The position numbers were made by a program, and so were the translations under genes. A stretch of 6,775 bases of DNA from positions 1 through 6,775 of the forward strand of contig CAMBBY010000067.1 in NCBI GenBank assembly GCA_945863825.1. The letters are read 5' to 3'. The DNA is from an uncultured Prevotella sp. (GTDB lineage: Bacteria; Bacteroidota; Bacteroidia; Bacteroidales; Bacteroidaceae). Every line of letters begins with the position of its first letter. Position 1 is the stretch's first letter. The notes below the pieces were generated by a model. It worked only from the letters and a program-made list of their open reading frames with translations, was not told the origin of the DNA and did not search any database. Below are positions 1 to 6,775 of this stretch, piece by piece.

Positions 1-285
1 AAAGCGAAAGATGCCATCAGCACTTCCTTCATTGGCGAAGAGATGTATCCATTGTGCATCCTCAGGATTTTCCAGCTGGATATTCCAGTCTTTGTTAGAA
101 CGGATGATGACTTTCGCCAGTTTTGACTTAGAAATACCAGCTGCAGGTACGTTTACCTGTGTCTGTTCGGTTTCCATTTTGAAATAGCATGCTTCATCAT
201 TGTCGCTTGCGCAAGAAGCAAATAGTATCATTGCCAGGGAAAAGGCAAAGGGGAAACAGCTGGATATGATATTTTTTCTCATCAT
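1..285 (-). CDS. BACON-like surface lipoprotein, 3' end missing
   Basis: This reading frame is open for 95 codons from an ATG at 285 (a second ATG follows at 282) and runs off the left edge with no stop. It starts MMRKNIISSC, has a hydrophobic stretch to about residue 22, and then ILFASC with the likely lipidated Cys at 25. The residues after the Cys are acidic (ASDNDEA), as in surface-exported Bacteroidota lipoproteins. Residues 44-95 resemble the start of a BACON domain: a VNVPAAG strand, then IIRSNKDWNIQL, then WIHLFANEGSADG. The SN-x-DW and WI-x-L...G spacing is typical of this Ig-like fold. BACON domains are often mucin- or glycan-associated modules in Sus loci, so a surface accessory binding role is inferred. 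The start lies 24 bases after the SusD stop, with an A-rich upstream region and no clear Shine-Dalgarno. The rest of the protein, and any further domain, is outside the window. The lipoprotein call is firm; the BACON call is moderate. Confidence 0.8.
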   Translation of the reverse strand, partial: MMRKNIISSCFPFAFSLAMILFASCASDNDEACYFKMETEQTQVNVPAAGISKSKLAKVIIRSNKDWNIQLENPEDAQWIHLFANEGSADGIFRF

Positions 286-309
286 GATTTTCGATTTTAC
301 GTTTATTCT

Positions 310-1908
310 TTATTTCTCTATGGCTTTTTTACTCCACCAGACCGGGGTTTTCATATCGTTCTCACCACCCATTCTCTGGAGGGCTTCATCAGCATGTACT
401 CTATTGGTAGCTATGGTAGTGCTTGGATATGCAAATCGGGTAGGAAGAATCATATCGTTATAAACGCAACCGCTTCCTATTGTGAGTTTTGGATATTCGG
501 TACGTCGGTATTCATGCCAGTCTTCCATTCCTGTCCAGAAGAGAGCCAGATATTTTTGATTACCAATCAGTTCGCACTTTGCCTCTTGTGTGTTAGCCTG
601 ATCCCATGATGCTAATCCTGAATTGAGGAATGTCTGGATTCCTTCTGTTGTGATTGCTAATGTAGGATCTACAGGAGATGCGAAGTCAGACCATTTCTGG
701 AGTGATGCTGTGATGGCTTTTTCATAGTGAGTCTTGGCGACAGTTTCTCCTCCTGGAATCAGTCCCTTGAGTGCTGCCTCGGCAAGGATAAACTCCACCT
801 CTGCATAGTCCATAAACCATTCATCGCAGTTGTTCCTGCAGAGAAGTTTATAGTTCAGGTAGGCTGCATTCTTGTCGCCATTATTTGATTCTTCACCCAT
901 CGTTGCTCCGGCAATAGTACCTGCCCAATATTCCCTTTTCTTTCTTCCGATGATAGGCAGACGAGGGTCTGTATATAGGTCAACCTTGGTATTAGTTGCA
1001 TCCTTGATGACCATCATCTTAATCATCTGTTCAGTCAACTTATAGCTGCCTGTTGTAAAGGATGATTCAGTGTAGTTGGCATTATCAAATTCGCTTGTAT
1101 ATGGAGCGATGCCGGTATAATGTACAGTGGCATTGTCTTCATTGCCTTCGAAAATAGGATAAGTCTCTTGACTGTGTACGATTTCAGTTATCTTCTGAGC
1201 CACATTGTGAGTGCCATCCACGATGGTTTCTTTTCGTCCACTGATACGGCACAACAGTCTGAGATAGAGAGAATTGTTGAACTTTTGCCATTTAGTCATG
1301 TCGAAGTTGTACATCCCATCCAACTTTCTGTTTTTCTCTTCTACGTAGGGTTTAGAAGCATAGATGCGGTTTGCCTCTTCCAGTTCGGCACACATCTGTT
1401 GATATACGTTTTCCTGAGAATCGAACACCGGTTGCTTGATTCCCTCTTCCGCCATGAAAGCCTCCTTGTAAGGAATATCTCCATAGATATCAGTGAGGTT
1501 TGACATGAACAGAACCTTCATGGTAAGACCCACTGCCTGAAGATAAGAAGCACCTTGAGCCTCTGCCAACTTGATCATGTTGACATCATTGCTGGCATAT
1601 CTTGAATAGGTATTCCAAAGAGCCTTCCAGTTCTGGTCTCCTATAAAGTAGCGATGTTCCTGACGGGTGGTTCCGCCAGTATGGGCTGTATGCTGAATGA
1701 GTTCATCACACCAAAACCAGGAATAATATGTAAAGAAGTTTGCACTTCCATAGAGAGTTTGCTCAAACATAGCGGAAGCTTCCAATTTGCCGCTCGACAC
1801 CGTTATCTTGTTAGGATTCGTATTGGTCTCGTCAAAATTATCTGTACAGCTTGCCATAGCAAGCATGCATGCTGCTAAACCGCAGAAATATATATTCATT
1901 TTCTTCAT
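310..1908 (-). CDS. SusD/RagB-type nutrient-binding outer-membrane lipoprotein
   Basis: This is a complete 532-residue SusD-like protein, within the usual 450-600 range. It would sit on the outer surface, bind the ligand and act as a lid on the SusC partner encoded just upstream. The signal peptide starts MKKMNIYFCGLAACMLAMAS, with the likely lipidated Cys at 21 followed by TDNFDETNTNPNKIT. That N-terminus is typical of the SusD-like_2 subfamily (nutrient-binding outer membrane lipoprotein). Other support is an aromatic cluster at 57-66 (NFFTYYSWFW), the TAHTGGTTRQEHRY segment just after it, and TDIYGDIPYKEA at about 139-150, a hallmark SusD motif. EVEFILAEAALKG belongs to the C-terminal helical repeats. 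I chose the ATG at 1908. A TTG two codons upstream (1914) would add only Met-Ile before the normal MKK signal start. The gap to the SusC stop is 15 bases. Ligand identity cannot be read from the sequence. Confidence 0.95.
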   Translation of the reverse strand: MKKMNIYFCGLAACMLAMASCTDNFDETNTNPNKITVSSGKLEASAMFEQTLYGSANFFTYYSWFWCDELIQHTAHTGGTTRQEHRYFIGDQNWKALWNTYSRYASNDVNMIKLAEAQGASYLQAVGLTMKVLFMSNLTDIYGDIPYKEAFMAEEGIKQPVFDSQENVYQQMCAELEEANRIYASKPYVEEKNRKLDGMYNFDMTKWQKFNNSLYLRLLCRISGRKETIVDGTHNVAQKITEIVHSQETYPIFEGNEDNATVHYTGIAPYTSEFDNANYTESSFTTGSYKLTEQMIKMMVIKDATNTKVDLYTDPRLPIIGRKKREYWAGTIAGATMGEESNNGDKNAAYLNYKLLCRNNCDEWFMDYAEVEFILAEAALKGLIPGGETVAKTHYEKAITASLQKWSDFASPVDPTLAITTEGIQTFLNSGLASWDQANTQEAKCELIGNQKYLALFWTGMEDWHEYRRTEYPKLTIGSGCVYNDMILPTRFAYPSTTIATNRVHADEALQRMGGENDMKTPVWWSKKAIEK

Positions 1909-1923
1909 AATCAACTTATTGTG

Positions 1924-4900
1924 TTAGAATGATAATTTTACGTTAACGCCGTATGAACGGGTCATAGGATACGACATAGTTTCGATACCGGAATGAACAT
2001 CGCCGCCATTTACCATTCCCACCTCTGGGTCGTATTGTGGGAAACTGGTCAGACAGAACAGGTTGGTGGCATAAGCTCCAATCTGGGCAGACTTCACAGG
2101 ACAGTTTTTCTTACTGAGCCATGTCTTAGGCAACTGCCAGTCGAGTCGTACCATCTTCAATTTGAGGAATGATGTATTGAACGTATTTTCCTCGGTGTTG
2201 TTTCGGTTCCAGACATAAGAGTTGTAATAGGTCTGTATATTGTCCACGATGGTAGTATTCTTGTGATAATTGCCATCCGCATCCTTGTACACACCATCTA
2301 CAACAAGGCCATCGTATCTGCCTTCAAGTGAGTTCTTTAACTTTCCTTGATAGGAGAGAGCAAAGTTGGTAACCGAGAAGCAATGACCTCCATATTGGGC
2401 AGAAAATACCATGGCCAAGGTGAGATTCTTATATCTGAAGGTTTGAGTCATTCCGGCTTTCCAGTCAGGATCAACCTTACCGATACGGCGGGTAGGGCTA
2501 GTATCCAGCATAGGGTAACCATTCTTATCAATCAGTTTCATACCGGAACAGTCAATCTGGTTGCCGTTTTCATCTGTATAATAAGAACCCTCCGGTGCGC
2601 GCTGGTACCCCCTTCCGTAGATGTAGTTCATCTGCTGACCTACGTAGGAATATACATATACGCGGCTTCCGATTGTTGTTCCCATACTGGTCTGCAACGG
2701 GGTTTGCGGATCCCAGTCGTCTTGCAGCGAAACCAGCTTGTTCCAGTTTTTAGACCAGTTCATGTCTATGTTCCATGAAAAGTTTCTGGTCTTTACCGGT
2801 GTGCCGGAGAGAGACAGTTCAATACCCTGGTTCGTAATTTTACCAGCATTGATTTTGTATCCTGTAGCACCTGTAATCTGATCGGCAGAAACAGTAAGAA
2901 TTTGGTTTGTTGAAGCTGTGTGGTAGGCAGTAAAGTCGAATCCCAAGTGTCCATTGAACATCTTTCCTTCGAATCCTGTTTCCCAACTTGCTACATTCTC
3001 CGGTTTCAGATTAGCGTCAGGAATGGTACCCTGCATGGTATAGCTTCCCGGGTATGAGGTGGATGAATAATATCGGTCAAGGGAATAAGGTGATGTATCA
3101 TTACCTACATTCGCCCAAGAAAGGCGATATTTCAGCATATTCATCCAATGAGCCTTGTCCTGCAGGTTGAACACTCTGTCGAGAAGGATGCTGGCTGATA
3201 CGGAAGGATAGAAGAAAGAGCGGTTGCTCTTGCTGAGCGTACTCGACCAGTCGTTGCGTGCTGTCAGATCCAGATAGTATGTGCCGTCCCAACTCATTTC
3301 AGCATAACCATAAAAGCTGTTTACAATCTTCTTCGTTTTATTGGCGTAGATATCCGGAATTTCTCCAGACGGCAGGTTGGTAATGTTGTATACGCCATCC
3401 ATCTGAAGTTTATTGAGAGTGATGTCTGTGCGTCGGTACTTGCGCTCGAGACTGTTTCCACCAAAGGCTGCCGTCAGTCCGAAACGGTCTTCAAGCCAGT
3501 TGTTTTTATACTGCAACAGGAAGTCATGATTCAGAATATAGGAACGGGTGCTCTGTTCGCGATAGAATCCTGCCTGATAGTTGGGAGTGTACCAAGGTTT
3601 TCTCTGGGTACGCCAGTCGTTAGTTATGTCGATAGCAGAACGCAAGTTGAGTGTCAGTCCATTGAGAATTTTGATATTTACCTGTGCATTTCCGTAAATG
3701 CGATTACGATCGAGCGTATTGATCTCTTCGTATGCTGTACGGTAAGGGTTGTACGAGTCGTTAGCAGGATAAACAAGACTATTACCATGGGTGCCATCGG
3801 TATTGTTGTAGTTCTCTGCATTGTACCTGCCCTGGAAATATTCATCTTTCCATGCCTTGATAGGATTATTGTTGTATCCCCATACTAAGGCATACATCGG
3901 ACTCTGTGCGCTATATCCACTGATAGGCAGATTGTCGCTGGACTTATGGTTATAGTTGACATTGGCTGTCAGCTTGATACTCTTGTTGATGGGAGTCTCG
4001 AAAGCCAGCGAAACTGAGTTCTGACGATAACCTGTGTTTGGTGTAATCCAGGTGTTTCGGGTGTCATTGATGGATGCTCTTGCCGATGTACCTCTACCAT
4101 TACCTCCAGCTATACTAATGGTGTTTTTCCAGGTCACACCCGTCTGGAAGAATCCGGTATACCAGTCGTCCGCATATACCCATGGCAGTTTTTCATAGGT
4201 ACCAGTTTCCCAGTTTTTAGACATATACTGGTATCTCATCTTGCTGGTATCAAATTTCTCTCCGAAAGCATAACGGGAAATATTGCGGTATGTAGCAATA
4301 CCATCGGGAGCTTCGTTGGCATCCAGTGTCCAGAAGCAGAATGGACTTAATCCATTGTCACTTCCGGCGCCATATTCTTTCTGAAAATCAGGCCAATAAC
4401 TGGCATAATCAAGTGTGACTGAAGAATTGAGTGTTACCCCGATACCCTTTTTGGTACTTCCTTTCTTGGTTGTGATGACTATAGCTCCATTACCTGCCAG
4501 CGAACCATACAGGGCAGTAGCTGCAGCTCCTTTCAGAACGGTAACTGATTCGATATCGTCTGGGTTAAGATCAGCAAGACTGCTTCCGAAATCTACCGGA
4601 GCATCACCATTGGCATAGTTGGCACCACTTCCAGTAGTTGGTGAGCCGGCATCCATCGGTATTCCATCAATGACGATGAGCGCGCTATTGTTGCCGTAGT
4701 TGAGCGAATTGTCACCTCTCAGCGTGATTCTCATGCTTCCTAACGGACCGGTACCTGCACCGACCATAGACAGGCCAGCTACTTTACCAGCCATGTTATC
4801 CAGCCAGTTTCCACTAACCGTACTGGTCAGTTCATCGTTATTGATTGTTTTCACAGAGTAACCTAATGCCTTTTCCTTGCGTGAGATACCCAAAGCTGTT

Positions 4901-5085
4901 ACCACCACTTCATGGAGCGACTGGTTAGTGAAAGACTCTTTATTATCTTTTGCTACTTTTATTTTTTTGATGTTCCCTTCTGCTCCTACAATTGAGTCAC
5001 GTGGAGCCATCTGTGCCATTGCGGGAGTAAGACCTCCCATGGAAACAAGGGCAAGACAGCCCAAACTCTTTTTAAAATGTCTCAT
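1924..5085 (-). CDS. SusC/RagA-type TonB-dependent outer-membrane transporter
   Basis: This complete 1053-residue protein is a SusC-family receptor that would import a ligand across the outer membrane with energy from TonB-ExbBD, in complex with the downstream SusD. A Sec signal peptide ends at AMA|Q (residues 22-25). A TonB-box-like stretch, LHEVVVTALGI, lies at 57-67. The plug domain follows: LRGDNSLNYGNNSALIVIDG at 122-141, and LNPDDIESVTVLKGAAATAL plus YGSLAGNGAIVITTKKG at 173-209. The remainder is barrel strands rich in aromatic and Asn residues, ending YGVNVKLSF, with the terminal Phe expected for BAM-dependent insertion. Only about 32 charged residues separate the signal peptide from the TonB box, so the N-terminal carboxypeptidase-regulatory-like domain common in SusC proteins is absent. 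The start at 5085 is preceded by AAGAAGAT, purine-rich but not a canonical Shine-Dalgarno, and lies 24 bases after the phosphoesterase stop. The family is certain; the substrate is unknown. Confidence 0.97.
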   Translation of the reverse strand: MRHFKKSLGCLALVSMGGLTPAMAQMAPRDSIVGAEGNIKKIKVAKDNKESFTNQSLHEVVVTALGISRKEKALGYSVKTINNDELTSTVSGNWLDNMAGKVAGLSMVGAGTGPLGSMRITLRGDNSLNYGNNSALIVIDGIPMDAGSPTTGSGANYANGDAPVDFGSSLADLNPDDIESVTVLKGAAATALYGSLAGNGAIVITTKKGSTKKGIGVTLNSSVTLDYASYWPDFQKEYGAGSDNGLSPFCFWTLDANEAPDGIATYRNISRYAFGEKFDTSKMRYQYMSKNWETGTYEKLPWVYADDWYTGFFQTGVTWKNTISIAGGNGRGTSARASINDTRNTWITPNTGYRQNSVSLAFETPINKSIKLTANVNYNHKSSDNLPISGYSAQSPMYALVWGYNNNPIKAWKDEYFQGRYNAENYNNTDGTHGNSLVYPANDSYNPYRTAYEEINTLDRNRIYGNAQVNIKILNGLTLNLRSAIDITNDWRTQRKPWYTPNYQAGFYREQSTRSYILNHDFLLQYKNNWLEDRFGLTAAFGGNSLERKYRRTDITLNKLQMDGVYNITNLPSGEIPDIYANKTKKIVNSFYGYAEMSWDGTYYLDLTARNDWSSTLSKSNRSFFYPSVSASILLDRVFNLQDKAHWMNMLKYRLSWANVGNDTSPYSLDRYYSSTSYPGSYTMQGTIPDANLKPENVASWETGFEGKMFNGHLGFDFTAYHTASTNQILTVSADQITGATGYKINAGKITNQGIELSLSGTPVKTRNFSWNIDMNWSKNWNKLVSLQDDWDPQTPLQTSMGTTIGSRVYVYSYVGQQMNYIYGRGYQRAPEGSYYTDENGNQIDCSGMKLIDKNGYPMLDTSPTRRIGKVDPDWKAGMTQTFRYKNLTLAMVFSAQYGGHCFSVTNFALSYQGKLKNSLEGRYDGLVVDGVYKDADGNYHKNTTIVDNIQTYYNSYVWNRNNTEENTFNTSFLKLKMVRLDWQLPKTWLSKKNCPVKSAQIGAYATNLFCLTSFPQYDPEVGMVNGGDVHSGIETMSYPMTRSYGVNVKLSF

Positions 5086-5109
5086 ATCTTCTTGAATTTA
5101 TGTGCTACA

Positions 5110-6730
5110 TTATCTGATATTTACGTTGAATGCTTTTGGTCTTTTCATTTCTTCCGTATAGACATGACCAAAGTTGTCAGTTACCTTGATCTTTATTGTA
5201 CTGTTGCTTTTCGAAGCCTTTGCTTTGAAAAGGTGTGCAGTAGGGGTGGATGGGAAGGTAACCTTTGCTTTACCTCCAGCATTGATGCGCTTGGCATCGT
5301 AAGAAATAATGTGAAGCGGATCATAACCTTCCATGCGGGTTACCTCAAGCGGTTTTCCTTCTTCGGTTACTTCTATCTTCCAGTCAGGCTGATAATTCCA
5401 AATATTCAGCAGGATTTCATTATTGCTTTTCTTTACATCATATCCCTGTGCATATATCTTCATATCTTCTTGATATTTAGGAGCATATACTTCTGGAGCA
5501 ATGTAAGTAGTGTTGAGATCGTAGGCTCTGAATTGGTATTTTTTATCAAAACCGCTACTTTTATAATACCATTCTGCCAGTTTGCCGTTCCACAGATATA
5601 CGCCATAACCTCCTGGAGTTCCGTCGGTACAAGTATTATTGCCAGACAGTTTACCCGTCCACCACCATGTAGCACAGATAGCAGCAGTATTGTGTTCACG
5701 GATATTGTTTCGCTTTTGAACATTATAGTTGACATGTGTATGTCCGGAAAGGAAGTGGACATTGGAGAAATCTGCAAACAGGGTTTCTATCTCACCCGTG
5801 TTTTGCAGGTTATCATCATCAATTTCCTGATTACCACCCAGTTTTGGATTACCATAGAGAGGAGCATGGGTAGCTACCATGATAGGGGTGTTCTTATCCT
5901 GGATGGAAGCAAGGTCTTTCTTCAGCCATGCGAGTTCCTCAGGAATGACAGTTTCATTATAATTGCGCTTTCCGATGGTTCCCTGCGATGCACCAGCATT
6001 AAGATATTGTATGTCATCAATAATAATATAATGTACATTACCGGCATTGAAAGAATAATATACCGGTCCGCAGATCTTAATCCATTCATCTTCAGCCTTT
6101 CTGTCGTCAGGGAAGTAAGGATCGTTGTCGTGATTTCCCATGCAATGGAAGAAAGGAATCTCTATTTTCTGCAGTTCCCGGAAAGTTTCCTTGATGCCAT
6201 AATTGTTGGAATACCAGAATCCGTCCCAACTCTCATCCCCCAGGCTGATGCCATAAACTTTATATCCCTGAGCACGCAATTCCTGAGCGGTCTGGTTGAT
6301 ATCAGCAGCTACACTTTCAAACTGGTTGATATCATTATTGCGTTTTGCCAAATGGAAGTCAGCCATGGCAAGGACAGCGTGTTTCTGATTATCAACCTTG
6401 TTGAGCGAGAAATCTATCTTTTCAGTTGTTTTAGTATCTTTGCTGGAAAGATGCTTGAAAAACTGTGGCAGGTTTCCTACCATGGTTGCTTCATATCCGG
6501 ATGGGATAGAAACGAAGACATAGCCATATTTCTTTTTTGACAGGAAACTGTATTCGCCTTTGTCGTTGGTTTTCACAACTTCCACACCGTCAGAAACCAC
6601 AGCATTGGCAATAGCCTTACCTCCACAGGTAACTTTACCCGTAATATTGCTCTGTTCTTTCTTGTGATTGCTGAACCCTTCAATATCAGCGTTGATGCTC
6701 TTTTCCGAGCAAGCTGTCATAGGTAAGGAC
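5110..6730 (-). CDS. Calcineurin-like metallophosphoesterase lipoprotein, 5' end missing
   Basis: The last 539 codons of this gene are present; its true start lies beyond the window. The N-terminal remnant is SLPMTAC followed by SEKSINADIEG, the end of a lipoprotein signal peptide with Cys as the seventh genomic residue. Residues below are numbered in genomic codons. An Ig-like/regulatory domain spans about 29-81 (ITGKVTCGGKAIANAVVSDG...). The catalytic domain carries all five metal-binding blocks: DFH (124-126), GD (164-165), GNHD (198-201), THAP with His at 288, and GHTH (329-332). A C-terminal domain follows, with WWWTGKLSG and DGTPGGYGVY and an ending near KVTDNFGHVYTEEMKRP. This MetallophosN-Metallophos-MetallophosC layout is a known Bacteroidota family. 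A two-metal phosphomonoesterase or diesterase is expected; the substrate is undetermined. It probably acts in the periplasm or at the outer membrane. It leads the visible operon, 24 bases before SusC. The first six residues of any call starting at 6747 come from the adapter. Confidence 0.95.
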
Positions 6731-6749
6731 CTGTCTCTTATACACATCT
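6731..6749 (-). other. Tn5/Nextera 19-base mosaic end (library artefact)
   Basis: The 19 bases CTGTCTCTTATACACATCT are the exact reverse complement of the Tn5 mosaic end used in Nextera tagmentation libraries. The junction with genomic sequence is between 6730 and 6731. It is followed directly by synthetic read-1 adapter sequence rather than IS50, so this is library adapter left in the assembly and not a resident transposon. Confidence 0.98.
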
Positions 6750-6775
6750 GACGCTGCCGACGATACTCCTTGTGT
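6750..6775 (-). other. Nextera read-1 tail, i5 index and start of P5 arm (library artefact)
   Basis: Bases 6750-6763 (GACGCTGCCGACGA) are the reverse complement of the Nextera read-1 primer tail. Bases 6764-6771 (TACTCCTT) sit exactly in the i5 index position; reversed they read AAGGAGTA, which I recall as the standard Nextera i5 index 507. Bases 6772-6775 (GTGT) match the first bases of the reverse-complemented P5 arm. The order and spacing fit the adapter layout with no mismatch. This is read-through adapter and carries no biology. Confidence 0.97.

Follow-up and report, generated by a model that had tools for sequence, protein, structure and literature searches.

A Nextera library adapter at the end of a draft Prevotella contig and the false N-terminus that it encodes

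The contig analysed here raises the question of whether its last 45 bases belong to the organism and, if they do not, how they came to stand at its right edge and what they do to the gene that they adjoin. The window, by which we mean the whole stretch of 6,775 nucleotides, is the entire contig C67 of a draft genome (G000) of 2,190,245 bases in 453 contigs (60% complete, contamination 0.29). An initial annotation, made from the letters alone, had read the terminal bases as an untrimmed Nextera adapter with a readable i5 index, placed the end of the genomic sequence at 6730, taken the right edge to be a library fragment end and predicted the same tail on sibling contigs. To these points the present analysis adds the i7 partner of the index (N701), a false start codon followed by false residues, six in all, an adapter block within a second contig (C72) and the occurrence of this artefact in further public genomes.

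Anatomy of the terminal 45 bases

Read directly from the sequence, the terminal 45 bases (6731–6775) are made up of a mosaic end of 19 bases, a read-1 arm of 14, an index of eight and the four bases GTGT (Table 1), and the identity and order that the initial annotation had given to these parts were right to the base. CTGTCTCTTATACACATCT is the Tn5/Nextera mosaic end and GACGCTGCCGACGA the read-1 arm in reverse complement. The index can likewise be read as claimed: AAGGAGTA, the reverse complement of TACTCCTT, is S507 in the index table of PMC7589761, and the S507 oligo printed there has ACAC just ahead of the index, in agreement with the GTGT at the contig end. Three of 60 sibling tails extend these P5 bases to GTGTAG. 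With up to three mismatches allowed, the mosaic end has a single match in the window, at the right end, and the left end of the contig, which was covered by the same search, is without one; in 200 dinucleotide-preserving shuffles of the window it was never found. We regard it as practically certain that 6731–6775 is Nextera (Tn5) library adapter, probably carried into the contig through untrimmed short-insert read-through, and we found no evidence contrary to the adapter identity. The tail has no biological function, and adapter at a contig end is an already known, ordinary artefact.

Table 1. Features of the window (positions 1–6775), with the strand and the basis of each assignment.
Feature	Position	Strand	Basis
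Lipoprotein-like start, first 95 residues, cut by the left contig end	1–285	-	
SusD-like lipoprotein gene	310–1914	-	Pfam (PF12771/PF12741)
TonB-dependent receptor plug gene, by its place probably SusC-like	1924–5085	-	Pfam (PF07715)
Truncated calcineurin-like phosphoesterase gene, genomic part, apparently a lipoprotein	5110–6730	-	Pfam; aligned with P0001 and relatives
Nine genomic bases at the putative Tn5 cut site, read inward, GTCCTTACC	6722–6730	+	5/7 defined GNTYWRANC positions
Adapter-encoded false start, ATG TGT ATA AGA GAC AG = M C I R D plus two bases of an R codon	6731–6747	-	
Tn5/Nextera mosaic end, 19 bases, CTGTCTCTTATACACATCT, written outward from genomic DNA	6731–6749	+	Sequence
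Nextera read-1 arm, reverse complement, 14 bases, GACGCTGCCGACGA	6750–6763	+	Sequence; arm directly after the mosaic end at 145 places in the genome
i5 index in reverse complement, TACTCCTT = AAGGAGTA = S507	6764–6771	+	Sequence; index table of PMC7589761
GTGT, first four bases of the P5 arm	6772–6775	+	Sequence; sibling tails; S507 oligo

One dual-indexed library and its fragment ends

The prediction that sibling contigs carry the same tail was borne out throughout the draft genome, in whose 453 contigs the mosaic end occurs 294 times with at most two mismatches, while the reversed control pattern has no match. The read-1 arm follows directly at 145 places. Mosaic end, read-1 arm and index together are found at 129 places, and in 99 of the 100 places listed the i5 index is TACTCCTT, the lone exception sitting inside contig C72. 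On the other side of the library, mosaic end, read-2 arm and index occur at 100 places, all of them listed, with the i7 index TAAGGCGA in 99 and an index one base off TAAGGCGA in the remaining one; reversed control patterns for either combination of mosaic end, arm and index gave no match in the genome. As TAAGGCGA is N701 in the index table of PMC7589761, the tails are explained by one dual-indexed library, N701 plus S507. We inspected 61 loci from the longer contigs (L001–L061), which hold 62 mosaic ends: 60 of these lie at contig ends with 24–29 bases beyond them, giving tails of 43–48 bases, and the other two form a block inside C72. The other synthetic arm, read-2, is present on 30 of the 60 terminal tails.

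If such tails mark the ends of tagmentation fragments, the genomic bases beside them should bear the target preference of the transposase, for which PMC8224930 gives the nine-base consensus 5′-A-GNTYWRANC-T for wild-type Tn5 and GTNYWRNAC for two Illumina kits. We scored 9-mers, read inward, by how many of the seven positions that GNTYWRANC defines they match, with random 9-mers of the same loci as control. Beside the 60 tails the mean score is 3.65 against 2.57 at random, with G at position 1 in 30 of the 60 and C at position 9 in 27; positions 1, 4, 5, 8 and 9 are off background at P < 0.05, and no departure is seen at positions 2, 3, 6 and 7, of which 3 and 7 are defined motif positions. 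The 40 left ends taken as adapter-free, selected from those of the first 78 contigs where no tail is listed, show no preference (mean 2.48 against 2.54 at random), and a partial tail is present in none of them. In a second genome (G264), whose tails carry other barcodes, 40 left ends chosen among the listed adapter places have a mean of 3.55, that of random 9-mers being 2.50, and P < 0.05 is reached at positions 1, 5 and 9.

These comparisons bear on a reading in which the tail is adapter as described but was joined to the genomic sequence at 6730 as a PCR or ligation chimera and not at the end of a tagmentation fragment. The nine bases of the window itself (GTCCTTACC) would allow this, as they match Tn5 only moderately, at five of seven positions, a score reached by 5% of random 9-mers, and the block in C72 shows that adapter between two genomic stretches can occur. 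However, in each of two genomes the tails as a set lie at sites that Tn5 prefers, which the 40 adapter-free ends do not, and we consider a chimeric join very unlikely. Since the 9-mer of the window is weak when taken alone, it is on the set of 60 ends that tagmentation is argued here; the Tn5 preference across the tails as a set supports the right edge of the contig as a tagmentation fragment end, as the initial annotation had proposed. That the 19 bases are the natural Tn5/IS50 end of a genuine transposon at this genomic place is a notion to which the derivation of the Nextera mosaic end from Tn5 ends lends some initial appeal, but it is refuted by the arm and index sequences and has a negligible probability, given the synthetic read-1 arm, catalogue index and P5 bases directly beyond the mosaic end, the 294 copies in one draft genome with a contig end at 60 of 62 inspected places, the other synthetic arm at 30 of the 60 contig-end tails, the lack of a Pfam transposase domain in all four window ORFs searched and the absence of a transposon body, only 26 bases of arm, index and P5 following before the contig stops.

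Under the preferred reading, adapter read-through from a tagmentation fragment, a transposase cut at 6730 would have ended one library fragment, and reads from short fragments would have crossed this point into adapter that was left untrimmed before assembly. Coverage there may have been thin (the genome is 60% complete and in 453 contigs), in which case the assembler would have extended the contig outward along the adapter-bearing reads and ended it inside the adapter, leaving the 45-base tail. A simple de Bruijn branch-point model of where it stops, which predicts that tail length falls as the genomic suffix common with other tails grows, was unsupported at 60 of the 294 places, all in this genome (Spearman −0.13, P 0.30). 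Among the same 60 ends, no pair has a 9-base target duplication in common.

False N-termini and an interrupted gene

The contig breaks off at 6730 inside a gene. A minus-strand ORF of 545 codons, in which Pfam finds MetallophosN, Metallophos and MetallophosC domains, is entered from the adapter and opens with MCIRDR, the final R being completed by one genomic base, followed by SLPMTACSEK. Its closest database protein, P0001 (552 residues, on two contigs, the longest of 9,534 bases), carries MKNFVTLLLSIAL ahead of SLPMTACSEK where the window ORF has MCIRDR, and differs from the ORF at a single position in the remaining 539 residues, from residue 7 on. This near-identical match stops where the genomic sequence had been said to end. 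Because the N-terminus of P0001 differs past 6730, MCIRDR can be assigned to the adapter, and 13 residues of the true protein would lie past the contig end, replaced in the ORF by the adapter-encoded MCIRDR. The N-termini of P0002, P0003 and P0004 are similar to that of P0001, and this native type is, judged by eye, an apparent lipoprotein signal peptide. Whether the 45 bases are continuous with genomic sequence elsewhere, which would speak against an adapter, was examined at the protein level: P0001, on another contig, has the apparent signal peptide instead, and judged on proteins P0001–P0004 the native locus has no adapter sequence. When 60 genomes of the genus, the one studied here among them, were searched at the nucleotide level, the matches were the window itself and a single other, at 67%, which falls short of the junction; two relatives among genome contigs are 58% and 54% identical.

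The adapter ATG is in frame with the truncated minus-strand gene, and ORF callers would thus assign it a false N-terminus. No spread of such a terminus was seen in the protein families searched. CIRDR or CIRDS occurs within the first 25 residues in none of 120 relatives among the matches listed (the best 120 of 2,254), and MCIRD, MYKRQ, VYKRQ, SYTHL and LSLIHI are in none of the 155 proteins from both protein searches.

As for the surroundings of the phosphoesterase gene, the SusD-like lipoprotein gene and the TonB-dependent receptor plug gene run in the same direction (Table 1), and the three together resemble a nutrient-uptake locus of Bacteroidota. The protein at 1–285 has no Pfam match at E 0.001.

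The opening supplied by the adapter is general in form, as the reverse mosaic end has a start codon in two of the three frames, ATG (MCIRDR or MCIRDS) and GTG (VYKRQ). An adapter start codon opens an inward ORF of at least 100 codons in 20 of the 60 tails (10 per frame), and in 31 tails such an ORF reaches 60 codons or more, lengths being capped at about 505 codons, where the locus ends. Nor are the frames behind these starts special: on stretches trimmed to a uniform 230 bases, 29 of the 60 tails and 11 of the 40 adapter-free ends have one of the two open over 60 codons. Open frames are common at contig ends, and the adapter only contributes the start codon. Among the ORFs started by or containing adapter, the status as a true gene was examined for that of the window and that of C72. 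We consider it quite likely that draft genomes systematically acquire false N-termini from untrimmed Nextera tails, and that leftover barcode pairs let genomes of different species be traced to libraries.

In C72 the adapter lies inside a coding sequence. The block of 70 bases (L030:1475–1544, which is G000:C72:4391–4460) is arranged head-to-head within a 291-codon ORF, with a mosaic end and partial read-2 arm followed, in the opposite direction, by a partial i5 index, read-1 arm and mosaic end. The whole ORF matches DUF2971 across the block at 36.8 bits; searched alone, the left side reaches 21.9 bits against a cut-off of 22 for the same domain and the right side has no domain match. Of 35 relatives of the C72 protein the 14 closest have 268 residues each, and all six that were aligned are without the block. 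The match of the whole ORF to DUF2971, together with relatives that are without the block, therefore indicates that the two sides are most likely one gene interrupted by adapter. The flanks of the block have no 9-base duplication in common.

The same artefact in other records

Among genomes of the genus, the 33 bases of mosaic end plus read-1 arm are found in three of 299, the one studied here included (two of 298 others). The tails of one of these (G264) carry i5 ACTGCATA and i7 AGGCAGAA, with single-base exceptions among the matches listed, and those of the other (G038) carry i5 AAGGAGTA and i7 TCCTGAGC, each in four of four; in the index table of PMC7589761 these are S506 and N703, and S507 and N704, respectively. 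The tails of G264 and G038 perhaps come from the same sequencing project. In a sample of the phylum, the 33-base adapter is present in three of 247 genomes, again with our own included (two of 246 others), and as 246 of the 247 are at least 90% complete, the genus and phylum rates are not comparable.

Viral, phage and plasmid collections contain the adapter as well. In IMG/VR at least 120 stretches have it; of 80 among the matches listed, 79 have it no more than 150 bases from the locus end, and nine different 8-mers are seen among the 65 that have a full index. The 45-base tail is found in 27 of 50,697 phage records, where 17 of the 20 listed match over the first 33–35 bases only, and in nine of 72,556 plasmid records; complete E. 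coli genomes gave no match to it under the “near” setting of the search.

Two of these records deserve separate mention. In an IMG/VR contig of 4,734 bases (L147:2154–2186) the adapter sits mid-contig, 2,153 bases from one end, possibly a misjoin like that in C72. In MK373775.1, a complete phage genome, the 33-base adapter (L266:1501–1533) spans the point where a long tail fibre CDS is annotated to end, and a further CDS with the same product name follows about 330 bases on, an annotation that the adapter may have broken.

In practical terms, the tail at 6731–6775 should be masked and the phosphoesterase ORF should not be taken as complete. Proteins from this genome that start with MCIRD or VYKRQ, or that contain VSYTHLRAHE, are probably part adapter, and the readable pair of N701 and S507 identifies the library. 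Adapter-encoded peptides were not met as a subject in the titles and abstract openings of those open-licence PMC articles that were listed, by which we make no claim that they are absent from print.

The nearest known system is read-through contamination from Illumina Nextera and Nextera XT libraries, which presents the same mosaic end and the same read-1 and read-2 arms. It agrees with the present case in the catalogue indices at contig ends (N701 and S507 in the index table of PMC7589761) and in the adjacency to Tn5-preferred sites (as described in PMC8224930). There is no difference in kind from the usual form of this contamination; what stands out is the extent, with 294 mosaic ends in 453 contigs and both barcodes readable. 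A second likeness is to spurious proteins of the AntiFam type (PMC9710616, PMC13294457), where artefact DNA read as coding also yields a false protein segment; searching the main text of either article for “adapter” or “adaptor” gives no hit. However, whereas AntiFam deals with proteins that are wholly false, here a true protein would gain a false N-terminus, as in the window, or a false insert, as in C72.
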